A DNA stretch of 64,000 bases from positions 186,001 to 250,000 of the forward strand of contig NZ_JACOFW010000006.1 of NCBI RefSeq assembly GCF_014284305.1, read 5' to 3'. The position numbers and the translations under genes are program-made. A model generated the notes under the pieces. The model had not been told where the DNA came from. It was given only the letters and a program-made list of their open reading frames with translations, and did not search any database. Source of the DNA: Affinundibacterium seohonense. GTDB taxonomy: Bacteria > Pseudomonadota > Gammaproteobacteria > Burkholderiales > Burkholderiaceae_D. Shown piece after piece: positions 5,295 to 21,821 of the stretch; the stretch's first letter is position 1; each line of letters starts with the position of its first letter.

Positions 5295-6389
5295 TTGGAT
5301 ACGCTTGTGACAACCAAAACTTATCCCTGCACCCAATGCGGTGCCAAACTAGAATTCGCACCCGGTCAATTGGCACTCAAATGCCCTTACTGCGGCAATC
5401 AAAATCAAATCGAAGCCGACGCAACCGAGCAAACGATTGCCTACGAAGAATTGGATTACGACGCTTTCTTAAGCAAGCAAGCTGGCAACGAAGCGATGAT
5501 AGAACAACAAACTGTCAAATGCACAGGATGCGGCGCGCAATCGCAATTTGGACAAAACATTGTCTCTGATCGCTGCCCATTTTGCGCGGCACCGATGATC
5601 GCCACCAACGCCTACGCCAAGCGCCAGATTCAACCTAAAGCGATTGCGCCTTTCGACATCAAAGAAAGCGATGCTCGCAAAAAATTTAGTGATTGGGTAC
5701 ACGGATTATGGTTCGCTCCCAACGCCCTCAAACGCGCTTATCGCGCCGAGCGAGGATTGAAGGGTATCTATACGCCATACTGGACCTATGACGCAGATTC
5801 CGACACGACCTATCAAGGACAACGCGGCGTCGATTACACCGCCACTGAAAGCTATGTACAAGATGGCGAAACCAAAACCCGTCAAGTTACCAAAACCAAT
5901 TGGTACCCAGCCGCAGGCGAGGTGCAAGTGAGTTTCGACGACGTCTTAGTGATCGCTTCAAAAACACTACCAAAAGAATACGCTGACAATCTAGCGCCCT
6001 GGCACCTCGACAAACTACAAGGCTATCGCGATGACTATGTCTCCGGCTTCACAGTCGAGGCCTATCAGGTCGCGTTAGAACCTGGCTTTGTCGATGCCAG
6101 AGCCATCATGGAAGACGGCATACGCAGCGCGATCTGCCGCGACATCGGCGGCGACCACCAACGCATTACCGCGATGCAGCCACGCTATTCCAACATCAGC
6201 TTCAAACACATCTTGCTACCGATTTGGCTATCGTCGTACAAGTACGGCGAAAAGACTTATCGCTTTTTGGTCAATGGACAGACGGGTGAAGTACAGGGTG
6301 AGCGGCCTTATTCGTATTGGAAAATCGCCGGTGCGGTTTTATTGGCGTTTGCTGTGGTGATGATGGTGATTGCGTTGACGAAGAGGTAA
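5295..6389 (+). CDS. Double zinc-ribbon protein with C-terminal TM helix (YdjG-like)
   Basis: Up to 364 aa. The only in-frame starts before the first motif are TTG 5295 and GTG 5307; the GTG has a weak GGA about 7 bases upstream, so the start is unsure. Four CxxC knuckles are visible: CTQC and CPYC, then CTGC and CPFC, making two rubredoxin-like zinc ribbons in the first 110 residues. A long beta-rich region rich in aromatic residues follows (YTPYWTYDADSDTTY). A single TM helix sits at the end (about 341-361, GAVLLAFAVVMMVIAL) with a KR tail. Such proteins are often mislabelled as helicase or primosomal proteins, but no helicase motif is present. It is a tail-anchored partner of the SPFH protein by context; in Bacillus, YdjG/YdjI form a membrane complex. 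Confidence 0.75.
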   Translation: MDTLVTTKTYPCTQCGAKLEFAPGQLALKCPYCGNQNQIEADATEQTIAYEELDYDAFLSKQAGNEAMIEQQTVKCTGCGAQSQFGQNIVSDRCPFCAAPMIATNAYAKRQIQPKAIAPFDIKESDARKKFSDWVHGLWFAPNALKRAYRAERGLKGIYTPYWTYDADSDTTYQGQRGVDYTATESYVQDGETKTRQVTKTNWYPAAGEVQVSFDDVLVIASKTLPKEYADNLAPWHLDKLQGYRDDYVSGFTVEAYQVALEPGFVDARAIMEDGIRSAICRDIGGDHQRITAMQPRYSNISFKHILLPIWLSSYKYGEKTYRFLVNGQTGEVQGERPYSYWKIAGAVLLAFAVVMMVIALTKR

Positions 6390-6425: not shown

Positions 6426-6468
6426 GCGCTGACATCACATACAGCTTATTTTCAAGTGATGTCAGCGC
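6426..6468. terminator. Perfect 13-bp hairpin between convergent genes
   Basis: GCGCTGACATCAC (6426-6438) and its exact reverse complement (6456-6468) flank a 17-base loop. It lies between the convergent zinc-ribbon gene and hipB, and the right arm overlaps the last codons and stop of hipB. The stem is strong and GC-containing but no run of T follows on either strand. It could act as a bidirectional, factor-assisted terminator or a 3'-end stabiliser. Confidence 0.6.
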
Positions 6469-6752
6469 GAACTCGACTTAGGCACTGCGCTAAGCACCAT
6501 CCCCATAGGACGCAAAAGTTTTTCCACCGTCGCTAAACTTGGGCTTGACACCTCACGTTCGATGTCTTGCAAAGTGCGCGCCGATACGCCACACAATTTT
6601 GCATACTCGGCGATGGTAAAACGTAAGCTAGTACGAATCTTTTTGATGACTGCGGGGATAGGCATACTAGGATCAGCGGCAAGCTCTTCGGTCAAAGCAC
6701 GCCGCGCCTGTATTGCCTCGGCGGGTGACAAAGGAATAAAGCGTTTATCCAT
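6462..6752 (-). CDS. hipB: HipB-like antitoxin, XRE-family DNA-binding protein
   Basis: 96 aa. The C-terminal half is a Cro/C1 helix-turn-helix (FTIAEYAKLCGVSARTLQDIE, then SSPSLATVEKLLRPMGM), the standard HipB fold. The N-terminal 40 residues form a charged helical extension not found in short HipB. Its ATG (6752) directly follows the TAG of hipA with no spacer. The RBS GGAGGG lies inside the end of hipA, so its translation depends on hipA mRNA. It should neutralise HipA and repress the operon promoter, which must lie above hipA at 8058-8411. Confidence 0.8.
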   Translation of the reverse strand: MDKRFIPLSPAEAIQARRALTEELAADPSMPIPAVIKKIRTSLRFTIAEYAKLCGVSARTLQDIEREVSSPSLATVEKLLRPMGMVLSAVPKSSSR

Positions 6753-8057
6753 CTACAATCCCTCCAGTTGTGATCGAAGATTCGCTATCGTCTTTTCAAA
6801 TGGATTGATAAATTCTTCCTCTATCCCCAAAGACAGCGCGTCCTCGACCAGCGTTGCCAAGGGTTCAGCCATGATCTGAACGCCATTTTTGACCGCATTA
6901 AAATCCAACGCTGTCGCATCACAAGCCTGACGAATGACGCTCGCCCATTTTGGCGATCCACCGTCATCTTGTTGCCAACGGATACGCCTTGCGATGCCAT
7001 CAGGATGTAAATACATAGGAGCAAAATCGAATAAAGGCGTCAGAGAAATCGTGCCATCATCACACCGTTGTATTGCCGTGTTACGCGCATGATTATCTTT
7101 ATTTCCCAGCGCAATATTCGCAATATCACGCTTGATGTACTCAACGATATCGCGCATAGGATCACTGCTGACTTTAGCTAACTCACGACACACTTCATTA
7201 TGCGAAGGTAGCTTACCAAATCCATTGATACCACAAAGAGATGCTATGCTCTCTTGAGCGTTGCGTAACACTTTTCCGTCCCGCACTTCCCGATCGAAAC
7301 GCGGTATGAACAAAGCTCGCTCATGCAAACTCAACTCGGCATGAACATGCAAACCCAGTCGCTTTGCCAATTGCATATACGGTGCTTCCAAACGCAAAAT
7401 AGTCGCTAACGCGATGTCACGACCTCGGCCAAACTTCACGATAAAATGCGCCTCTGCCAGCTCGTCGGGTAAAGCATGATCAAGGTAGTACAGCCCATCA
7501 TGCGCACGGGTCAACAGGATCTTCGGCCACTCACCTTGTATGCCAGAAGATCCCGCTAAAAATAGTCCATGTTGGGCGAGGTATTCATTGAAATCACCAG
7601 CCCTAGATGCGATCTCTGCCATCGAAAAGCCACGGAGTTTGGCATCGACGTTTTGGCTGCTACGTGCTGCAACCCATTCATGCGCTTCCTTGATCCGGAT
7701 ATTCCCAATAGGATTACCAGCACCTGCACACAACAAGGCCCAGTCAGCCGATGGCCCTGCGGTTTCACTCCGTGCCAATTGCTTTAACAACTCAGCCCGT
7801 CCATAACCTTGAGGCAGTAAGTCAATCAAAAAAGCTGGCCAAGCCTCGCTCGGATAACTACGCAAATCAACAGGCACATTCACAGATAAGGCAGCAGCAT
7901 CCGACCTCTCCCAATAGGACAGCGCAAATTCAGACAAATAGATTAAATACGTAGACGCAGCCATACCCAGCGCCGGGTCGCCAGTCAAATCAAGCGCAGC
8001 GGCATCACGCCAAACGCCATCAATAAACAACTGTAATGTGCAGGTAGAGGGGTTCAT
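6753..8057 (-). CDS. hipA: HipA-family Ser/Thr kinase toxin
   Basis: 434 aa from ATG 8057; a GTG two codons earlier (8063) is the alternative. It has an N-terminal 'couple_hipA' domain (about 5-125) and a C-terminal kinase domain: glycine-rich loop GSSGIQGEWPK (about 171-181), IVKFGRGRD (about 208-216), catalytic loop GNKDNHARN (about 320-328) and the metal-binding DFAPM (about 346). All key residues of the HipA kinase family are present, so it is probably active. E. coli HipA phosphorylates glutamyl-tRNA synthetase; the target here is unknown. The gene order is toxin then antitoxin, the reverse of E. coli hipBA. Confidence 0.88.
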   Translation of the reverse strand: MNPSTCTLQLFIDGVWRDAAALDLTGDPALGMAASTYLIYLSEFALSYWERSDAAALSVNVPVDLRSYPSEAWPAFLIDLLPQGYGRAELLKQLARSETAGPSADWALLCAGAGNPIGNIRIKEAHEWVAARSSQNVDAKLRGFSMAEIASRAGDFNEYLAQHGLFLAGSSGIQGEWPKILLTRAHDGLYYLDHALPDELAEAHFIVKFGRGRDIALATILRLEAPYMQLAKRLGLHVHAELSLHERALFIPRFDREVRDGKVLRNAQESIASLCGINGFGKLPSHNEVCRELAKVSSDPMRDIVEYIKRDIANIALGNKDNHARNTAIQRCDDGTISLTPLFDFAPMYLHPDGIARRIRWQQDDGGSPKWASVIRQACDATALDFNAVKNGVQIMAEPLATLVEDALSLGIEEEFINPFEKTIANLRSQLEGL

Positions 8058-8411
8058 ATGCACAGAATACTAGCAGTAATATCTGCAGTTTACCGAGTAT
8101 TTATGTAGGAAAAGTGCTTAAATGTAGTAAAAAGTTAAAAGTGATGCGATTTACTACGCGAACGTGCCTTGCTGTCCTATGGTCTTGGTAAGGCGACTCT
8201 GAGCGATTGATGTTGAGAGTTGGTACCTGGATTTGCGTGGGGTGGGTTGATTGGGATGTCTGCGATGAACCAAATTAAGTCCAACGATGCACTACTCATC
8301 ACGGTCTTCGATAGCTCGCAATCTTAACTGAGATGTCTTAACCATATGCGATATTTCATGCTCCCAGAATTTACATATCTCACTCACACTGAAATGACTC
8401 TTTTCATCAAA
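8058..8411. other. Intergenic region upstream of hipA
   Basis: About 354 bp between the OLD-like gene and hipA, both on the minus strand. It should contain the hipA-hipB promoter and HipB operators. I did not see a clear palindromic operator pair, tRNA or coding sequence. The composition changes from AT-rich beside the OLD-like gene to more mixed near hipA. Confidence 0.4.
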
Positions 8412-10379
8412 TCAAATCGCTAGTATCCGCTTTAACTCATCAAAAATAAAACGAAATTTCTCCCAACTTTCCGGTGAAATATGAATGTCTTCGTTAAAAA
8501 CAAGTTCAGAAAATTTAGCTTTCGAAAGTGCTACATTGTCTCTTGTGCGGGCATCAAAAACACTCTCATCCACGATTACTTTTCTCCCCGCCTTATTAGA
8601 GTTATTAGGTTCACCCGCAATATGTAAATTCGAATCAGAATGGCAAAATTTAGAATTGCGATCGAACTCGCTCCCTAAAAATAATCGCTTTCCATCATAT
8701 TCAGTTTTAATTTCACTTTCATCAAAAAGTAACTCTGTTGAAATATCGTCAGGGCGAATTCTGAAAGAAAAAACATTTAACACATCGTCCCCATGGAGCT
8801 TAATATTGCTATCGTCAGAATCAAATATTCCGATTCTCTTGGGGAAATTTGGATTGAGTTCCTTTTTTCTGGTTTGAATGAGTTCTTTCAAATGTGCTTG
8901 TAACTGAGGGCCACTCATATCAAAATCGATCACAGTTCCACATGTCGTTAAATCTTTTTCAGAACACGAACCAAATCGTAGGAAGAATTTATCTTCGATC
9001 TCCAAATACTCATTTTTCCCATGAAAATATTTTAGCGCTCTCAGGAAATATTTCCAGTCTGTTTTGCCTTCTGTAATTATAAGTGGATGAGATGTAGCTA
9101 ATATTTTTGCACTCAATGAATCATATAGATCTTTGAAGCGATTATTCTGGGAAATCATCATTTCATATACTTCTCTATACATCTCGTTACTAACAGGATC
9201 GCAAGACCTGCCAGAATTGTCCAAATCAATTATTTGAGTACGCAATGCTTGAGTCTCTGCAAGCCCAATGCTTAAAAATGGTGAATGTGAGCTCAAAATA
9301 AACTGAACATTCGGAAATAGTCCAAAAAGAATTGGTAATATTTCCTTCTGTAAGCGGATGTGTAAATGCTTATCCACTTCATCTATTAGAACCAATCCAG
9401 TGACATCATTTAATGTACTTCGCACAGACAAATTGTCTATGTGGCGAAGAAGTTCGCCAAAAATTATCAATAAAGCAGCTTCGCCAGATGAAATATTGAA
9501 AATTGATGGATAAATTTGCTTAATGACATGTTTTGATGGTGGAGTTGCAGAATATGACGAGATGATTTCATAAGTATCCTTAACAACCTGCAAGCGCCCA
9601 CCGCCATTATTACGAAATCCTATACCAAATCGAACATCTCCAAAATTCTTCGATATCAGAATTTTTGATAAAATTAAATTGAGGTTTTGGGATATATTTT
9701 TTGAAAAATTCTCATCTTTATTGATATTCAAATCTAACAAGACATCCATAATCCAATTGATAAGCTGAGGAAGCCCAGTAACGACTTCGATCGGATTTAA
9801 AAGAAATCCAGAAAATCGGTCTTTTTTCGCAAAATCAATTTCTATTTTGTAGATATCATTTAGGTAGCTAGGTGCTTCATATCTATATGAGGGGAAATAA
9901 CACATTAGATTCTCAGAGAATATTTTTTGAATTTTCTCTTTTGTTGATGAGGCAGAAACTCTCTTCACTGGCGAACCTAAAACCGATTCGCCTTGAAAAT
10001 TGGAATAAGGAATTTTTTCTTCTAATGGAATTGTTAAATCGTATTCACTCGAATCGAGAGATCCAAGCATGTTCGCGTAATCAAATGTCTCGCCATCGTT
10101 ATTTCTGAAACGAAGATATACCAAAGAAAATTTACTGGGATCAAGCCTATCACTTGGTGTAAATATCCGATAATATTTCTGTGCTTTACCTTCGTACTCC
10201 AATTCAAAACCGAGTTTCGCGAACTCGTGAATCGAATCAACGATGTAAGACATTACTGTGGTTTTACCCCGCCCATTAACACCACTTAATATAGCTATCT
10301 CGTTCTGTCCGAATTCCAATCGCAGAGATTCGAATGGCGCTCGATTTATTAAGAATAAATCACTCAAATAAATACTCAT
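8412..10379 (-). CDS. OLD-like AAA ATPase with C-terminal TOPRIM-type domain
   Basis: 655 aa from ATG 10379, which has AGGAA eight bases upstream; the in-frame GTG at 10385 is only two bases from that site. It has ABC/SMC-type ATPase motifs: Walker A GVNGRGKTT (about 33-41), signature SSGEAALL, Walker B GLVLIDEVDKHLH, and H-loop LSSHSPF. After that come TOPRIM-like elements: ITEGKTDWKYF (acidic Glu) and RIGIFDSDD (DxD). This order is that of OLD nucleases and related anti-phage ATPases. No partner gene (for example a GajB-type UvrD helicase) is adjacent. The gene is visibly more AT-rich than its neighbours, which suggests transfer. The role as a defence nuclease is inference. Confidence 0.75.
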   Translation of the reverse strand: MSIYLSDLFLINRAPFESLRLEFGQNEIAILSGVNGRGKTTVMSYIVDSIHEFAKLGFELEYEGKAQKYYRIFTPSDRLDPSKFSLVYLRFRNNDGETFDYANMLGSLDSSEYDLTIPLEEKIPYSNFQGESVLGSPVKRVSASSTKEKIQKIFSENLMCYFPSYRYEAPSYLNDIYKIEIDFAKKDRFSGFLLNPIEVVTGLPQLINWIMDVLLDLNINKDENFSKNISQNLNLILSKILISKNFGDVRFGIGFRNNGGGRLQVVKDTYEIISSYSATPPSKHVIKQIYPSIFNISSGEAALLIIFGELLRHIDNLSVRSTLNDVTGLVLIDEVDKHLHIRLQKEILPILFGLFPNVQFILSSHSPFLSIGLAETQALRTQIIDLDNSGRSCDPVSNEMYREVYEMMISQNNRFKDLYDSLSAKILATSHPLIITEGKTDWKYFLRALKYFHGKNEYLEIEDKFFLRFGSCSEKDLTTCGTVIDFDMSGPQLQAHLKELIQTRKKELNPNFPKRIGIFDSDDSNIKLHGDDVLNVFSFRIRPDDISTELLFDESEIKTEYDGKRLFLGSEFDRNSKFCHSDSNLHIAGEPNNSNKAGRKVIVDESVFDARTRDNVALSKAKFSELVFNEDIHISPESWEKFRFIFDELKRILAI

Positions 10380-10488
10380 AATCACAATTCCTGTTGATTT
10401 CTGTAGGCCATTCGATTCAACTTCAATTCATCCATCAATCGTGTCGACTAGGTCTGCCATACACAAAATAGGCATACTATCCCACTGG

Positions 10489-10592: not shown

Positions 10593-13500
10593 CTACTTCC
10601 CACCACGCGGATCAACCACATTCACCGCTTCAGGCGAAGGTCCATTAGCGCGGATATCAGGTCGATACATATCCTCAGCATAAGTCCCTGGTACATGGAA
10701 GCGGCCTGGTGTGACGACGCGTAGCATGTAGAAGAGATTGATCGGACTGCCACTCAGCCTGACTGCGGCAACGAATCTGTCGTCGCGGTATTCCTTGTGC
10801 TTGATGCGTTCATCCGCCATCGCGGCTGCGAGGTTGACACCGTCAATGCTGAATTCACCTGCTTGTGGGCCTTGTGAGATGTTTAGATTTTCTACCTCTA
10901 AGCCTGCTGGGATATGATCGATTACCAAGGCATCTTCGATGGTTTGTTTAGACTTGGCGGTGACGCGTACGATCAGCATGTCGCCAACTTTGAGATTACC
11001 GCCACTCCATGGTTTGCCTGCAACGGTGAACCATTTGCGCTCTAAGCTAATTTTTTCTGCGCTTGGAATTGGCAATTTCAATGGATAACCACTGGCCTCA
11101 AGTTCTATCCACAATGGATTGGCACCTTTGTTTTCCAGCGTGATACCTTTGATTGCCAAGGCGGGATCGAAGCTGCGGCTCTCGCTGTTTTTGGAACTAA
11201 TCGTGTTGCTGCCATCGGCAGTTTTGAGTACCACTTCCCATGGATCAGTGACAGTGCCACCGGCTGCGCGTGCCGCTAAGAATAAAGCGATACGTTCTTG
11301 GGTGGAGAAATAACCACGAGGTTTGCCGAGGCGATCTGCCAAATTCGTCAGTATGGTTTCACGTTGTGGGTGAGCGACTTTATGACGCAACATCAAAGCA
11401 TAAGACATGGCTTGATCGCGCACTGCCGTGCCATAGTCGCCGAGATAATCCCAATCCCAGTCGGTGCGTATGCCATACGGTTTCGTCATAGCGTCATTGA
11501 AGGCAACATCAGCACGTTTTTGATCGCCCATCAATTGCAACGCTAAACCCAGATGGACCAATGCAAGCGGTGATTTCGCACGATCGCGGTAGCTGTCGTG
11601 CAGCAAACGAAGAGACGCTAACGAAGCCTTTTGATCGCGTGCCAACATATAACCGATGTGCGCTAATTCGGCAAAGCGTTGATGACTATTGCGGATCAAA
11701 TCGTAATCGCGCCAATCATACTGTCCATTTGCATTTGGTTTAACCGCGGCTGGTAATGGCGAGAATTGATTCGCTGCGCCGTTAAGTTTTTCGGTCATCC
11801 ATTTTTGCGCACGTTTGCTCATTTCTTCTGGCACATTAAAGCCTGCTTCGCGTGCATCAGCTAAGAAGCTGGTGACGTAAGGTGTCAGCCACATTTCGTA
11901 GGAACCATCGTTGCCATTCCACAAGCGGAAGCCACCTTCTGCTCCTTGCATGCCAGCGATGCGACTGATCGCGCCTTCGATAAACTTAGCCCGTTGTTCA
12001 CGCGTATGCGGTACTAGTCCAACCGCTTTTGCGCCTTCTTCATCGATGTAGACATGTGGATAAGCCGCACTGGTGGTTTGCTCTAAACAGCCATACGGAT
12101 AGTCGAGCAAACCCTTGACGATACTGCGTACATTCAATGGTGGGCGATTCGACATTACCACACTCAAAGTTGCCGAGCCGCGATAGAAACGCTCAACCAT
12201 ATTGGCATCGAGTTTTTGTGTTGCGCCTGGCTCGATACGCAGGCGACGTGCATCTTGCTCACGCGGTACTGGTGGTTGGATTTGCAGTGCGAATTCTCTG
12301 CGTATCACGACGGGTTTTGCACCTGCGGTTTTTACATCGAGAGTGATGCGTGACAAACCAAACGGTTCGGTCGGCTCCACATTAAAACGCAAGATCGTTC
12401 TTTGTTTAGGAACCAGTTTGATATTGCGTTCACCTTCGGCGATTTTCAATAATTTATCCGCAGAGAGTTTGATGTTAATACTCTGCTCGCTTGGCATCAT
12501 ATTGGTCACATCTAATGCAAATGTCGAGGTATCGCCGGGACCGATAAAGCGTGGCGTTGCGATCTCGGCGACGATAGGGGCGCTGACCACAAGCTCTTTA
12601 TCAGTGCTACCGTAAGCGTCATCGGTCGATGCGACGACCATCACGCGCAAAGTACCATTGAAGTCAGGAATATTCAGAGGCACATCGGCTTCGCCTTTGT
12701 CGTTGAGCTGCACTGGACCTGAAAAGATATCGACCAATTTCACCTTCTTAGGCATGCTCTTCGTATCACGTTTACCGGCATCACCGCCCCATTTGATTTT
12801 GCCGGGCGTGCCATCCATACGCTCAATTAATTTACCGTAAATATCGGTCAACTCGGCGCTGAAACGATGTTTTCCGAAGAAGAAATCAAACGGATCTGGC
12901 GTTTTAAAACTAGTGATATTCAGAATGCCGACATCGACAGCGGAGACCGTTACCATGGCTTTTTTACCAGCAGCATTCTCGACTTTCACTTTGGCGATCA
13001 TGCGTTTTTCTGGCTCAACTTGGGCTGGTGTTGACACACTGACTTTCAACTTACGCGGCTCACGTGCCAGGGGCAACCAAGTTAAACCGACTGCACGCGC
13101 AGGCGTGACTTTATCGCCTTGACTGCCGGGACGGAACACGACGGTCGAGATATACATATCAGAGCGGTTCCAAGCTTTGTCAATTGGAATACTCACCGTC
13201 GTTCCATCGGTGCTGACGGAAACGCGTTTACTCCACAAGACTTTATCGGCTTCGACTAAGACCAGAGCTTCACCATCATGCGGTGGAATAATTTTGAGCT
13301 TAACGTCGCGGCCAGGTTTAGCTGGTGCGCCTTCTAATTGCAGACGAACACGATCAGGACGATTGCCTACGCTTTCGCTATCCTGCGCATTCCAACCTGC
13401 GTAGAAGAAGTAGCGTGCGACTAAATTAGTTTCTGGATCGGTGATTTCTAAACGATAGCGCCCCCACTTCACTGGCACAGTTAACTTAGCGCGGTTCTTT

Positions 13501-15698
13501 AATTCCAAAGCACCGGCATGGATTGTTTCTTCACCTTCGGTATAGCCTGAATGCCAACCACGCCCGGCTTCAAAACGCCAATAGTATTCGCGTTCTTCAC
13601 GCACCAATTTAAATGGTGCTTGCTTTAGGACAGAAAATTTACCAGCAGTATTCACACGGATAATTTCAAACTCCGCCATGCTACCTTCGCGAGTAACGTC
13701 TTTTTCAAATAGTGGACGGATGCCTATCATGTGCTGCGCAGGCCACCAGACACGTTCAATTGAGCGCACGACCGGACGGCCGCCAGACTCTAATAAGCTA
13801 AATGCAGCACGTACTTTCAATGGTGATTTTGCATTCGCAACGAAAGGCACATCGACTTCGGCTTTGCCACTATCATCCAAGCTCGTTTCTTCGAGTTCAG
13901 AACGACTCTTATTCGTATCATCGGCGAAATCACCGAAGATAAAGCCCGGCCATTCTTTCGCAACAGGATTCTTGAAACGCTCTTGTGCCACGCTTCCAAG
14001 CAAGCGATTACCAGCAGCTGGCGCGCCGTACAAATAATCGCCTTGCACGTCAACACCAAAACTGGTGGTATCGGCCAATGGCGTGGTTTCCGATGTCAAA
14101 CTCAGCTTCATGCGCTCTGGTAAAAATTCTTCCACCTGAAATGTGTAGATAGAATCTGGACGTTTAGCCGTCGGATCGGCGCGGAATTCCAAACTCCATT
14201 TCCCTGTCGCGGCATCAGGTGGTAAATCGATCGTGTTCTGCAAATATCCCGGCGTCTTGGAATTAGGTTGCCAGATGCTGGAGCTGACGACATCGCCACT
14301 TGGCTTCTTCAAATCGACTTTGATCGGTGCGGGCGGTAAGGCTACGCCTTCTGCTGTGCGCGCCATTAAGGATGCAGTGAATTTTTCACCGGGACGGTAC
14401 AGATCACGCCCTGACCACGCGAACAATTTGGCATCGCGCGGCAAATGGCCACCAATATCAAATTCAGCTAAATCCAAACCTGGTTCTTGTAGTGCAATGA
14501 TTGAGGTTTCTTTACCGCGTTTGGCCAACAATAATTTGGCGCCATTCGGCAAACCCGGCAAAACACCATGACCATCGCCATCGGTTTTTCCACGCAATAA
14601 GACTTTACCGTCGGCACCCAAGACTTCTAGATCAACGCTCCCCTGCGCCGAGCCTTCTTTTAATGAAGTTGTGAAGACATCCGTTTGTTTCAATTGGCGA
14701 CGTACATGCAAACCAATATCACTGACGTAAAAATACGTAACTTGATAATCGTATTCGTAATGACCAGGACGACGCATTACTGCAACATAGATGCCTGGTT
14801 CTTTTAATTCAGTAATTTTTTCGACAGGTAAAAAGCTGACTTTGCGGCTATTTGGTACTTCATTGGTGACGAACCGATTTTGATAAACGCTGTCGGCAAT
14901 ACCTTGCAAGGCATTTAATTGCCAACCTGAGGTTAAGCCTTTGAGTTTATTGCGATTACCGTAGTAGTCATAATAATCCTCCTCACCACCCTCGCCTTCA
15001 CCTTCTTCGTCAACACTTTCACCATGTCGATTTTTACCAATCACCATATCAATAAACTTCGGGAGCTTTTCTGGCGAGACACGCAAAAATTCCACATCCA
15101 CTTCAGGAATGTTGACCGTCACAACTGGTAAGCCACCATTTAAACCTGCTGGCAATACCGTACCCTTACTCGCAAAGAAGTAAGATGGCGCCATTTCATC
15201 ACTAATGACGTCGCAACTAGCCGCGCTCTCTAATTTTTTGCCCGAGCTGGCAGCGAGCATACCACTCAGCTTAACGCTATATTTATGACCCGCTTTTACA
15301 AACGGAAAAAGTAAAACATGCGGATTATCAGAAACGATCCAACCACCTTTGACCAAATCGCTAGGTTTAGATGCGGCAGCGGCCGAGGCCTGACCGGACG
15401 ACGTTTTATTTTGCTCCGCTTTGCTATCACCTAGATCGGTAACTTCAATCAACTTGTCCAACGCTTGATCTGGATCGACGCTTTGCGAAAACATTACCGC
15501 CAAAGCTGGTTTGTCCTCATGCAAACGAGCCAAACAAGATCCCATCGTAAATGGTGCATCGGGATTCAGCACAACCGCATCACCACTCACTGGCACACGA
15601 TTCTTGCTTTTTTTCATCCACCAAATTCCTGCACCAGCAGATACCAGAGCGATGCTCAACAACCCGACGGCAAGGCTCTTTTTAGAAAATTGTGTCAT
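10593..15698 (-). CDS. Bacterial alpha-2-macroglobulin family protein, thioester type
   Basis: 1701 aa from ATG 15698, chosen because AGGGA lies 7 bases upstream; frames further upstream lack an RBS. An N-terminal hydrophobic anchor (about 8-26, LAVGLLSIALVSAGAGIWWM) followed by KKSK points to an inner-membrane-anchored periplasmic protein; no lipobox Cys is seen. An acidic Glu/Gly/Tyr insert (EEGEGEGGEED) lies at about 230-250. Macroglobulin domains follow, for example DLYRPGEKF and a long 'bait' region. The thioester motif CLEQ is at Cys about 1204 (YPYGCLEQTT). Family role: trapping of invading proteases, by analogy with E. coli YfhM. The usual partner pbpC is not adjacent. Confidence 0.88.
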   Translation of the reverse strand: MTQFSKKSLAVGLLSIALVSAGAGIWWMKKSKNRVPVSGDAVVLNPDAPFTMGSCLARLHEDKPALAVMFSQSVDPDQALDKLIEVTDLGDSKAEQNKTSSGQASAAAASKPSDLVKGGWIVSDNPHVLLFPFVKAGHKYSVKLSGMLAASSGKKLESAASCDVISDEMAPSYFFASKGTVLPAGLNGGLPVVTVNIPEVDVEFLRVSPEKLPKFIDMVIGKNRHGESVDEEGEGEGGEEDYYDYYGNRNKLKGLTSGWQLNALQGIADSVYQNRFVTNEVPNSRKVSFLPVEKITELKEPGIYVAVMRRPGHYEYDYQVTYFYVSDIGLHVRRQLKQTDVFTTSLKEGSAQGSVDLEVLGADGKVLLRGKTDGDGHGVLPGLPNGAKLLLAKRGKETSIIALQEPGLDLAEFDIGGHLPRDAKLFAWSGRDLYRPGEKFTASLMARTAEGVALPPAPIKVDLKKPSGDVVSSSIWQPNSKTPGYLQNTIDLPPDAATGKWSLEFRADPTAKRPDSIYTFQVEEFLPERMKLSLTSETTPLADTTSFGVDVQGDYLYGAPAAGNRLLGSVAQERFKNPVAKEWPGFIFGDFADDTNKSRSELEETSLDDSGKAEVDVPFVANAKSPLKVRAAFSLLESGGRPVVRSIERVWWPAQHMIGIRPLFEKDVTREGSMAEFEIIRVNTAGKFSVLKQAPFKLVREEREYYWRFEAGRGWHSGYTEGEETIHAGALELKNRAKLTVPVKWGRYRLEITDPETNLVARYFFYAGWNAQDSESVGNRPDRVRLQLEGAPAKPGRDVKLKIIPPHDGEALVLVEADKVLWSKRVSVSTDGTTVSIPIDKAWNRSDMYISTVVFRPGSQGDKVTPARAVGLTWLPLAREPRKLKVSVSTPAQVEPEKRMIAKVKVENAAGKKAMVTVSAVDVGILNITSFKTPDPFDFFFGKHRFSAELTDIYGKLIERMDGTPGKIKWGGDAGKRDTKSMPKKVKLVDIFSGPVQLNDKGEADVPLNIPDFNGTLRVMVVASTDDAYGSTDKELVVSAPIVAEIATPRFIGPGDTSTFALDVTNMMPSEQSINIKLSADKLLKIAEGERNIKLVPKQRTILRFNVEPTEPFGLSRITLDVKTAGAKPVVIRREFALQIQPPVPREQDARRLRIEPGATQKLDANMVERFYRGSATLSVVMSNRPPLNVRSIVKGLLDYPYGCLEQTTSAAYPHVYIDEEGAKAVGLVPHTREQRAKFIEGAISRIAGMQGAEGGFRLWNGNDGSYEMWLTPYVTSFLADAREAGFNVPEEMSKRAQKWMTEKLNGAANQFSPLPAAVKPNANGQYDWRDYDLIRNSHQRFAELAHIGYMLARDQKASLASLRLLHDSYRDRAKSPLALVHLGLALQLMGDQKRADVAFNDAMTKPYGIRTDWDWDYLGDYGTAVRDQAMSYALMLRHKVAHPQRETILTNLADRLGKPRGYFSTQERIALFLAARAAGGTVTDPWEVVLKTADGSNTISSKNSESRSFDPALAIKGITLENKGANPLWIELEASGYPLKLPIPSAEKISLERKWFTVAGKPWSGGNLKVGDMLIVRVTAKSKQTIEDALVIDHIPAGLEVENLNISQGPQAGEFSIDGVNLAAAMADERIKHKEYRDDRFVAAVRLSGSPINLFYMLRVVTPGRFHVPGTYAEDMYRPDIRANGPSPEAVNVVDPRGGK

Positions 15699-16025
15699 CT
15701 TCATTTCCCTAATTATCAATGATGCCAATATAGCATTGGACAGAATACAAAAGTGTAAAACTCAAGCTATTACCGGAAAGATTTTGTTAGTACATAAAAT
15801 CAATAAAAAAAGAAGCAAATACAGCAACAAGATCTAAAAAGCAATTCTCAATTGCAATAAAAACACCGAAAAACAACAAGCCCATAGATCATATTGCGCC
15901 TAACAATTCGCTCCTGTAGTATCAAACAGCCTAATTTTTGCAGGGCAGCAAGGCATACCAGTAATAAATACGCATTGAATGACACCCTGTCATTCAATAC
16001 AAATAAATCAAATGGGAGATAAGAA
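15699..16025. other. AT-rich intergenic region upstream of the TonB receptor
   Basis: About 327 bp between the divergent macroglobulin and receptor genes. It is AT-rich and contains the inverted repeat listed at 15974-15998. No open frame with family resemblance was found. It must carry both promoters. Confidence 0.5.
15974..15998. promoter_or_regulatory. Perfect 11-bp inverted repeat upstream of TonB receptor
   Basis: ATTGAATGACA, CCC, TGTCATTCAAT: an exact palindrome with a 3-base centre. It ends 15 bases before the GGGAG ribosome site of the receptor (16014-16018). It could be a repressor operator or an mRNA hairpin close to the start codon. It does not match the Fur consensus by eye. Confidence 0.6.
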
Positions 16026-21185: not shown

Positions 21186-21821
21186 TTACTTGGCAGATCT
21201 GACGACAGCTGTCTCTACACTATTCTCTGACAACTTTGCACGCATTTTGTTCATAGCGTCAAAACTGTCAAAGGGACCGACTCTGACTCGATGTAACACA
21301 CCGTTGTCACTGGCTTTATCGGATACATTCGCTTCCACCCCAACCATCGCCAATTTCGCCCTCGCGCTTTCAGCATCAGCAACTTCTCTAAATGCACCTA
21401 CTTGTAAAAAATAGATGTATTTCTCGTCTGCGACCTCTGGCTTAGATGCGGTAGCGGTAGCGACCGCGGGCACAGCAGTTGAAGCGGGAGCTGGATTCGC
21501 GGCGGCCGCTGCGGCTTGCAATGCATCGACTGGCTTTACGCTTTCCGCCGTTTTACTCGCAGCCACTTCTTTCGCTGCTTGATTCACTGCATCTTTATTG
21601 CCATACAAAGGTTTATTGGGGTCTTGCATCTGCGTCGCTGGCGCGTCCGGCTTATCGCTTTTGCCATTTTTATTGGTAAACGGTGTAGCCGCTTTGTTGA
21701 TCACCAAGGCGACGATAACGGCAATACTCAAACCGATCACTAAACCAATAATGATGCCAGTCAAGGTATTCCCTGCCTGACGCGTAAATCTATGTAGGTT
21801 ATTGATTGTACTAGAACGCAT
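21186..21821 (-). CDS. SPOR-domain protein, FtsN-like membrane protein
   Basis: 211 aa: a short cytoplasmic N-terminus, one TM helix (about 19-42, GIIIGLVIGLSIAVIVALVI), a long Ala/Pro/Lys-rich periplasmic linker, and a C-terminal SPOR domain (about 133-209, YIYFLQVGAFREVADAESAR to HRVRVGPFDSF). SPOR domains bind denuded glycan at the division septum, so a divisome or cell-wall role is expected. The position directly behind argS is typical of Burkholderiales. Strong RBS AGGGGAA. Confidence 0.88.
   Translation of the reverse strand: MRSSTINNLHRFTRQAGNTLTGIIIGLVIGLSIAVIVALVINKAATPFTNKNGKSDKPDAPATQMQDPNKPLYGNKDAVNQAAKEVAASKTAESVKPVDALQAAAAAANPAPASTAVPAVATATASKPEVADEKYIYFLQVGAFREVADAESARAKLAMVGVEANVSDKASDNGVLHRVRVGPFDSFDAMNKMRAKLSENSVETAVVRSAK

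Follow-up and report, generated by a model that had tools for sequence, protein, structure and literature searches.

The window analyzed here, a stretch of 64,000 nucleotides from Affinundibacterium seohonense (contig NZ_JACOFW010000006.1, positions 186,001 to 250,000 of the forward strand), contains a gene that joins an ABC ATPase to a TOPRIM domain and has the appearance of a self-sufficient anti-phage gene, the nuclease part of which was swapped in evolution. The gene is intact, its two domains have complete and conserved active sites, and its base composition is foreign. On balance, it appears probable that the product is a horizontally acquired, self-contained abortive-infection protein in which a PtuA/AriA-type sensor releases an Eco2-type TOPRIM RNase. 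An earlier note, made from the sequence alone, had described the gene as OLD-like and as a candidate single-gene anti-phage system. The latter description can be retained, as architecture, foreign composition, and patchy occurrence make the gene a good candidate, with the reservation that defence itself is what we infer. The former holds for the ATPase–TOPRIM architecture, but is too narrow as a label, because the ATPase is nearest to PtuA/AriA and the TOPRIM domain to Eco2.

The open reading frame can be read from a GTG, but an ATG at 10379 is the likelier start and would give a protein of 655 amino acids; residue numbers used here (E439, D443, D522, etc.) follow the 657-residue version (Table 1). 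All ATPase motifs that the earlier note had called complete (Walker A, ABC signature, Walker B, and H-loop) were read in the translation, and so were EGKTD and DSD, the EG.TD and DxD elements of its TOPRIM-like C-terminus. Relatives were collected by a genome scan with a three-sequence seed (79 loci), a scan of viral contigs (37 loci, 30 of which match the ATPase stretch only and were excluded), and scans with the window protein that returned 29 plasmid and 5 phage records, none covering 80% of the query. Among the 91 loci examined, 66 were kept as full-length ATPase–TOPRIM relatives (at least 595 amino acids with the motif EG[KR].D; L012 and L013 were added by hand, and L082, L087, and L088 were left out as other architectures). 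This set holds copies (L002 equals L059; L017, L093, and L094 are identical); 13 of the 66 relatives, near-copies among them, were dropped from the 54-row alignment A2, and 7 of 67 rows were dropped as near-copies from the 60-row sets. The relatives span Bacteroidota, Pseudomonadota, Bacillota, Spirochaetota, Elusimicrobiota, Synergistota, Fusobacteriota, Melainabacteria, and others; plasmids account for three of them and viral contigs for seven. NG.GK, the S.G of the signature, and the DE of Walker B are invariant in the 54-row alignment, and the signature E is kept in at least 90% of its rows. The TOPRIM residues E439, D443, D522, D524, E551, and K622 are identical in all 60 family rows (window protein included), so that the TOPRIM motifs are no chance match, and S549 is kept in 52 of them. 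Pfam recognizes AAA_21 in the window protein (E 7e-9) and has no match at E ≤ 1 for its C-terminal third.

By sequence and predicted fold, the ATPase sensor is of the PtuA/AriA type. PADLOC assigns PtuA to the window protein with E 9e-31, and the NCBIfam models for Ec78 PtuA and for an Ec67 fusion both match below their cut-offs. In the PDB, the family profile finds best the ATPases of the retrons Ec83 (E 3e-34) and Ec78 and PtuA (E 3e-34 to 5e-24), followed by AriA (E 2e-17) and then TsOLD, whose entry 6p74 is the best OLD-named match (E 3.4e-9, ATPase part only). The full-length model, with a mean predicted local distance difference test score (pLDDT) of 86.8 and a predicted template modelling score (pTM) of 0.71, resembles PtuA most closely (Z 27.4; root-mean-square deviation, rmsd, 3.1 over 316 residues) and then AriA (Z 19.4, rmsd 4.0, 269 residues). 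Consistently, AriA models of PADLOC match 53 of the 54 aligned family members at E ≤ 1e-5. The ATPase domain is thus one shared with Septu and the type I-A retrons Ec78 and Ec83. The HNH nuclease that acts with PtuA is a protein of its own, PtuB; the nuclease of the window protein is instead a fused TOPRIM domain, and no PtuB is found next door, where the neighbours are hipA/hipB and an alpha-2-macroglobulin-like gene.

The TOPRIM nuclease, by the same two lines of comparison, is of the retron-Eco2 type. The PADLOC model RT-Toprim_I-C matches the whole window protein at E 1.6e-18 (residues 399-655) and its TOPRIM part at E 2.7e-18, and finds 52 of the 54 family members at E ≤ 1e-5. When the TOPRIM profile was run against the whole PDB, the Retron Ec67 protein was the single molecule at E < 0.01 (E 2.9e-5), and no OLD or GajA chain appeared at E ≤ 1. 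Since the fold search with the whole model was filled by ATPase matches, a second, TOPRIM-only model was built, and the TOPRIM fold anticipated by the earlier note is predicted for the domain alone with a pLDDT of 92.8 (pTM 0.89). This model matches Eco2 with Z 11.2–11.5 (rmsd 2.8–2.9, 167–171 residues, 22–23% identity), class 2 OLD proteins with Z 6.5–6.7 (rmsd 4.0–4.5, 151–158 residues), AriB with Z 6.1 (rmsd 5.4, 161 residues), and Eco8 with Z 5.0 (rmsd 4.5, 159 residues), and Eco2 is its one Foldseek match at E ≤ 0.001. Class 1 OLD proteins were not among the 50 fold matches listed for the full-length and TOPRIM-only models, which does not exclude kinship with them. The reverse transcriptase (RT) and msDNA of Eco2 are replaced in the window protein by the ABC ATPase. 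The catalytic residues are of the same kinds and in the same order as in Eco2 (E/D..DxD..SxE..K), for which E374/D460/D462, D378/S513/E515, and a lysine given as K562 have been reported (PMC12405507). The catalytic lysine of class 2 OLD proteins is also numbered K562 (PMC6755086). In the TOPRIM profile alignment the Eco2 lysine opposite K622 is, by our own count, about residue 541, and we therefore equate the two lysines by motif and not by the published number.

The two domains have different histories. Residues 1-400 of the window protein are 53% identical to L014 from Methylobacter and 17–18% identical to a Flavobacterium group (L045, L047, L048, L053), whereas residues 431-657 share 32% with L014 and 43–47% with the Flavobacterium group; the switch lies no more than about 20 residues from position 430, immediately ahead of EGKTD. 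Forcing the window protein together with the Flavobacterium group is rejected in the ATPase tree by the approximately unbiased (AU) test (log-likelihood difference 118, p-AU 1e-37), and so is its placement with L014, L095, and L096 in the TOPRIM tree (86.5, p-AU 8e-45). There, it forms one clade with the Flavobacterium group (support 99); the ATPase grouping of the window protein with L014, L095, and L096 has a support of 84 and is not starred. A second case is offered by L041 and L026, whose ATPases are 70% and TOPRIM domains 29% identical, while the TOPRIM domains of L041 and L051 share 63% identity; here, too, the AU test rejects the two reciprocal groupings (p-AU 1e-38 and 1e-42). The groups for these tests were named after the trees had been seen, and the trees are of a quick type without bootstrap. 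In 33 of 60 rows the nearest row differs between the two domains. A family-wide correlation of pairwise identities was dropped as proof of exchange, as by its control it does not discriminate: r is 0.43 between ATPase and TOPRIM (0.52 with five outlier rows dropped), 0.91 between the ATPase halves, and 0.56 between the TOPRIM halves. The count of 53 of 60 rows with a reciprocal conflict of at least 0.10 was likewise left unused, many of the conflicts being driven by the fast-evolving L039 and L078. The claim of exchange consequently rests on the named conflicts with AU tests, and from these sequence comparisons there is strong support that ATPase and TOPRIM domains were exchanged within the family and that the window gene is one such chimera.

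Fusions of this TOPRIM type to reverse transcriptases occur as well. One such gene, in G010 of the same genus (L151:8532-10382), encodes an intact-looking RT-TOPRIM protein of 616 amino acids with YADD (E 1e-133 to the Retron Ec67 protein), and hence the genus holds this TOPRIM type in two architectures. It occurs furthermore in L088 and L089 (Campylobacterales), L091, and L092, in proteins of up to 1608 amino acids in which a script found no Walker A motif; these are further architectures of the TOPRIM effector.

A fraction of the relatives is tied to restriction-modification (R-M) genes. Fourteen of the 66 sit in or directly beside R-M operons. Eight of them, from three lineages (L017, L019, L021, L093, and L094; L056 and L058; L069), lie on the same strand between hsdM/hsdS and hsdR, the hsdR of L019 being only partial, and six more are directly beside R-M genes (L018, L023, L028, L038, L070, L078). 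Four additional rows are near R-M genes, of MmeI type in L036 and L073 and of type I in L039 and L062. An R-M match was obtained for 19 of the 66 loci; with L079 omitted, whose match is a short HsdM segment (E 1e-8), 18 were labelled, 14 as operonic and 4 as near. Merging the near-identical L017/L019/L093/L094 and L056/L058 reduces the operonic rows to 10 lineages. On the tree the 14 rows require at least nine state changes (mean after shuffling 12.8; equally few in 2 of 500 shuffles), and the link therefore arose, or was lost, many times. ResIII (8) and the families of the R subunit and the S subunit of type I systems (7 each) are the commonest in Pfam among 114 neighbours, where by a rough estimate well under one R-M neighbour would be expected if the genes were random. 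An order-level scan gave only loci already in the set (L069, L038) or other architectures. Schlafen/AlbA_2 proteins were seen in R-M loci of relatives, and a protein that is Schlafen/AlbA_2-like by eye lies inside the type I R-M locus of the host genome (L152:4709-6118, on contig C66).

This arrangement is reminiscent of PrrC and RloC, in which an ABC ATPase is tied to an RNase. The PrrC nuclease is not known to be of the TOPRIM type, in contrast to that of the window protein, and the window copy is not nested in an R-M operon. It is reported that a linked type I R-M enzyme keeps the anticodon nuclease PrrC silent and that an anti-restriction factor of phage activates it (PMC2610378). A further parallel is provided by the HEC genes, which are described as embedded in another defence system, Hma (PMC12111858), as some relatives of the window gene are in R-M operons. 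In the mechanism that we favour, the N-terminal PtuA/AriA-type ABC ATPase would assemble and sense a phage cue, for which anti-restriction activity is the likeliest kind because relatives lie inside type I operons and PARIS answers to Ocr. The ATPase might then release the C-terminal Eco2-type TOPRIM nuclease, until then held in check, and the freed domain would cut RNA with two metals and a lysine, thereby stopping the infected cell. Provided that the protein is a defence nuclease, its target is, by analogy, rather probably RNA. RNA cleavage is the better guess because the isolated TOPRIM domain of Eco2 has been published as an RNase; it is toxic, whereas the full protein is not (PMC12405507). 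In addition, the AriB TOPRIM of PARIS is described as a tRNase (PMC12409363). A tentative extension, possible but on the whole doubtful, is that a conserved ATPase serves as a guard platform that has repeatedly settled in R-M operons, with Eco2-type TOPRIM RNases swapped at a fixed junction upstream of EGKTD. If true, the ATPase would hold a PrrC-like post and fire when restriction is blocked, and the swapping would probably serve to alter which RNA is cut and to stay ahead of phage counter-measures. The pair L041/L026 poses the corresponding question of whether trigger and target are separable along the domain line.

Several points weigh against an R-M-linked sensor that frees an RNase. No R-M match was found for 47 of the 66 relatives in the fetched DNA, which is short for some, and the window copy itself is unlinked; the type I system of the host genome is on contig C66 (with HsdM and HsdR matched by tblastn and an ORF that looks HsdS-like by eye). 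A promoter scan gave no excess (8 sites vs. 9.9 expected, none upstream of the gene) and was uninformative. The position of S549 is ambiguous in the Eco2-like RT-TOPRIM rows, only one of the five so labelled having a serine there (one of the five, L088, was later relabelled 'other'). The TOPRIM domains of class 2 OLD proteins and GajA are reported to cut DNA (PMC10568477), so an Eco2-type fold is no proof of an RNase, and the Eco8 complex is reported to cut double-stranded DNA (PMC12887533). The last point could also be read in favour of a DNA nuclease of the OLD type that acts alone (class 1 by context) and nicks or degrades phage or host DNA in response to DNA ends or a recombination inhibitor. 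In OLD classes 1, 2 (GajA), and 3 (Eco8), a single chain carries an ABC ATPase and after it a TOPRIM domain, with common two-metal residues; the lysine is shared with class 2, and the TOPRIM model does match class 2 OLD. Class 1 is defined by context, as a single gene with ABC ATPase and TOPRIM (PMC10568477), and the window gene falls under this definition. We nevertheless regard such a DNA nuclease as unlikely, as both domains are less similar to OLD than to PtuA and Eco2: the Eco2 fold scores far above the OLD domains (11.5 vs. 6.7), the TOPRIM profile recovers no OLD or GajA chain at E ≤ 1, and the ATPase finds TsOLD only after PtuA and AriA. Moreover, even P2 Old, a one-gene ATPase–TOPRIM protein, is said to cleave host tRNA (PMC13261556, citing Govande et al., 2025). 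Gabija (class 2) was ruled out, as no UvrD-like helicase GajB is adjacent to the window gene, and no RT is found at the gene as would correspond to class 3.

An ATPase sensor combined with TOPRIM is also the principle of PARIS, which is reported to sense Ocr and to occur in single-gene fusions of AAA_15/AAA_21 with DUF4435 (PMC9122126). The window gene might accordingly be taken for an AriA–AriB fusion, whose TOPRIM domain would be freed by Ocr-like proteins and cut tRNA, and the breadth of the AriA model matches together with the AriA-like fold of the ATPase speaks for this. Neither the window protein nor its TOPRIM fragment nor any of five relatives, however, matches DUF4435, the AriB TOPRIM, at E ≤ 1; no AriB model is among the 7 PADLOC families listed for the TOPRIM part, and AriB ranks well below Eco2 by fold. 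A PARIS fusion was rejected on the DUF4435 result, and we consider a single-gene PARIS variant rather unlikely.

The I-C type of the TOPRIM domain raises the further alternative of a retron effector, either a remnant that lost its RT or a protein acting in trans with an RT elsewhere in the genome. The host genome does contain one RT gene, and a sister genome has the Ec67-type RT-TOPRIM gene mentioned above. The RT gene lies on another contig (C86) and not at the locus, and in the window no Rfam retron RNA reaches the gathering score, although Rfam lacks many retron RNAs. Reverse transcriptases, like UvrD, are absent from the 25 most frequent of the 149 families found in the 114 nearest-neighbour proteins of 59 relatives, and can therefore account for at most one neighbour. 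A retron with the RT next door was ruled out on these grounds, and since the ATPase–TOPRIM architecture is itself common to 66 relatives, a retron effector of either kind seems very improbable.

A large share of bacterial immunity consists of ATPase-plus-TOPRIM proteins, the one-gene forms of which have only lately come under test. Such defence proteins are already known, also as single genes (PARIS fusions, P2 Old, HEC-04/IbfA, and YbjD). A 2023 review did not name any broadly defending OLD protein of class 1 from bacteria (PMC10568477), and HEC-04/IbfA and YbjD have been reported since (PMC12111858; PMC13261556), HEC-04 and its homologue IbfA as one-gene ABC ATPase–TOPRIM proteins with demonstrated phage defence (PMC12111858) and YbjD as another one-gene ATPase–TOPRIM defence protein, the protection by which is reported to persist in TOPRIM mutants (PMC13261556). 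The IbfA of plasmid R64 (L155:12654-14210, 518 amino acids), identified by its length of 1557 bases and the ProQ neighbour, matches the window protein with a BLASTP E-value of 0.11, the TOPRIM profile with a probability of 0.2%, and the full family profile over 67 columns of the ATPase core (E 4e-7). The 29 plasmid records matched by the window protein do not include R64, itself part of the collection, and the HEC-04 model is not among the best 25 of 81 PADLOC families for the window protein. Membership of the window protein in the IbfA family was thus ruled out for the R64 protein, with which only the generic ATPase core is common. A 2025 phylogeny of the OLD family is reported to include 11 uncharacterized clades (PMC12796447), and the family of the window protein may be one of these. 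In the open-licence PMC literature we found no description of a PtuA-type ATPase with an Eco2-type TOPRIM domain, of the exchange of its effector, or of its place in R-M operons. The family adds compact candidates of another lineage and links three systems that have been investigated apart from one another, Septu/PtuA, PARIS, and retron Eco2, via shared, recombining domains.

The occurrence of the gene is patchy. Of 43 genus genomes, that of the window and two more contain full-length relatives (3 in total), so that the gene is not present in all related genomes; the other two, in G030 and G003, are about 31% identical, are located elsewhere, and equal proteins of Undibacterium amnicola (L059) and U. 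squillarum (L071), respectively. Of 399 order genomes, 5 gave a match to the TOPRIM profile, the RT-TOPRIM retron being one of the matches. The AT-rich, distinct composition stated by the earlier note is borne out as well: the gene has a G+C content of 35.4% (30.7% at third codon positions) vs. 45.7% in the window, and in a sliding scan of 1974 bases moved in steps of 100 (mean 0.457, sd 0.025), the position 8401 has the lowest G+C of the entire 64 kb. These features bear on a possible role outside defence, as a housekeeping or chromosome-related ATPase–nuclease. The archaeal Cran1, an OLD-family protein, is reported to have a non-defence role (PMC12796447), and the authors of the IbfA study leave room for other roles of distant homologues (PMC12111858). 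Considering the patchiness, the foreign composition, the plasmid and viral-contig copies, and the R-M linkage of some relatives, we give such a role very little credence.

Table 1. Coordinates of the ATPase–TOPRIM gene, its domains and motifs, and the surrounding features in the window.
Feature	Position	Strand	Remarks
ATPase–TOPRIM gene	8412..10385	-	GTG start at 10385, 657 codons; intact ORF
N-terminal ABC ATPase, PtuA/AriA type by comparison	9102..10385	-	residues 1-428 of 657
C-terminal TOPRIM domain, retron-Eco2/Ec67 type by comparison	8415..9101	-	residues 429-657
Walker A GVNGRGKTT	10257..10283	-	read directly from translation
ABC signature SSGE	9480..9491	-	read directly from translation
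Walker B LVLIDE	9378..9395	-	read directly from translation
H-loop SSHSP	9279..9293	-	read directly from translation
TOPRIM motif EGKTD (E439, D443)	9057..9071	-	translation and family alignment
TOPRIM DxD, written DSD (D522, D524)	8814..8822	-	translation and family alignment
STE (S549-x-E551), putative metal-B ligands	8733..8741	-	alignment; Eco2 S513/E515 (PMC12405507)
Invariant K622, putative catalytic lysine	8520..8522	-	alignment; class 2 OLD K562 (PMC6755086)
hipA	6753..8063	-	PF07804 E 3e-28; PF13657 E 9e-7; neighbour, not judged a partner
hipB	6462..6752	-	HTH_3 E 7e-10; neighbour
Alpha-2-macroglobulin-like gene (YfhM type), conserved wall of variable site	10593..15728	-	E 9e-285 to YfhM structure
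364-aa zinc-ribbon gene, conserved other wall	5295..6389	+	16 of 43 genus genomes; DZR E 1e-4, under cut-off
Window-specific segment vs. G030	8257..10481	.	blastn breakpoints; holds only the ATPase–TOPRIM gene
Decayed 3' end of Fic-family gene	8148..8256	+	84% identity to L132:6103-6213; frames broken
30-base REP-like repeat, right edge of specific segment	10487..10516	+	7 genome copies, ≤3 mismatches

The gene lies at a variable site. Upstream is the alpha-2-macroglobulin gene, the C-terminal part of which was matched in 19 of 43 genus genomes, and downstream follows, on the same strand, the hipA-hipB pair that had been noticed next door and was confirmed by Pfam. In agreement with the accessory block proposed previously, the content between the alpha-2-macroglobulin and zinc-ribbon genes differs among the six sister genomes examined, and the ATPase–TOPRIM gene is absent from the same site in all six. 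G008, with a macroglobulin 98% identical, has 1.1 kb at the site with one ORF of 278 amino acids and neither hipAB nor the ATPase–TOPRIM gene; in G061 the site holds only about 0.6 kb; G032 has a 210-amino-acid gene and a 398-amino-acid gene that by eye resembles the DJ-1/PfpI gene of G030; and G002 has a 199-amino-acid relative of the former together with a 193-amino-acid gene. No PADLOC model matches the 278-amino-acid ORF of G008 or the 193-amino-acid gene of G002. G023 also keeps hipAB, on a contig separate from that of its alpha-2-macroglobulin gene, so that the site is split over two contigs. In G030 the site contains hipAB, DJ-1/PfpI, Fic (PADLOC SoFic, E 8e-49), a PADLOC 'cll' match (E 4e-18), a 315-amino-acid gene, and a RES-domain gene. 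Since G030 has the hip pair at the same site without the ATPase–TOPRIM gene, HipAB was ruled out as a partner, and no general partner family recurs among the 114 nearest-neighbour proteins; the gene thus appears to lack a partner, as had been supposed. The decayed Fic stretch of the window corresponds to the last 34 codons of the Fic gene that is intact in G030, and is a remnant of earlier cargo at the site. A reversed-pattern control for the 30-base repeat gave 0 copies in the genome. The unshared segment, the Fic remnant, and the edge repeat together indicate that cargo, partly defence-like, is exchanged at one spot.

Some minor observations concern the neighbourhood. The usual order of a hip pair is hipB-hipA, the reverse of that in the window, where hipA is upstream of hipB (6462-8063). 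In G030 the SoFic-like Fic, cll-like, 315-amino-acid, and RES-domain genes stand in a row as alternative cargo (L132:5014-9257), and the latter three possibly form one system. For the 364-amino-acid gene, the relatives in G030, G032, and G061 show one TAG inside the match; the listed TTG start for this reason probably lies too far upstream, and GTG, taken as the start in L132/L133, is likelier. Two tRNAs alone reach Rfam gathering scores in the window, and ARAGORN calls, without Rfam support at that score, an 85-base tRNA-Lys at 21632-21716.

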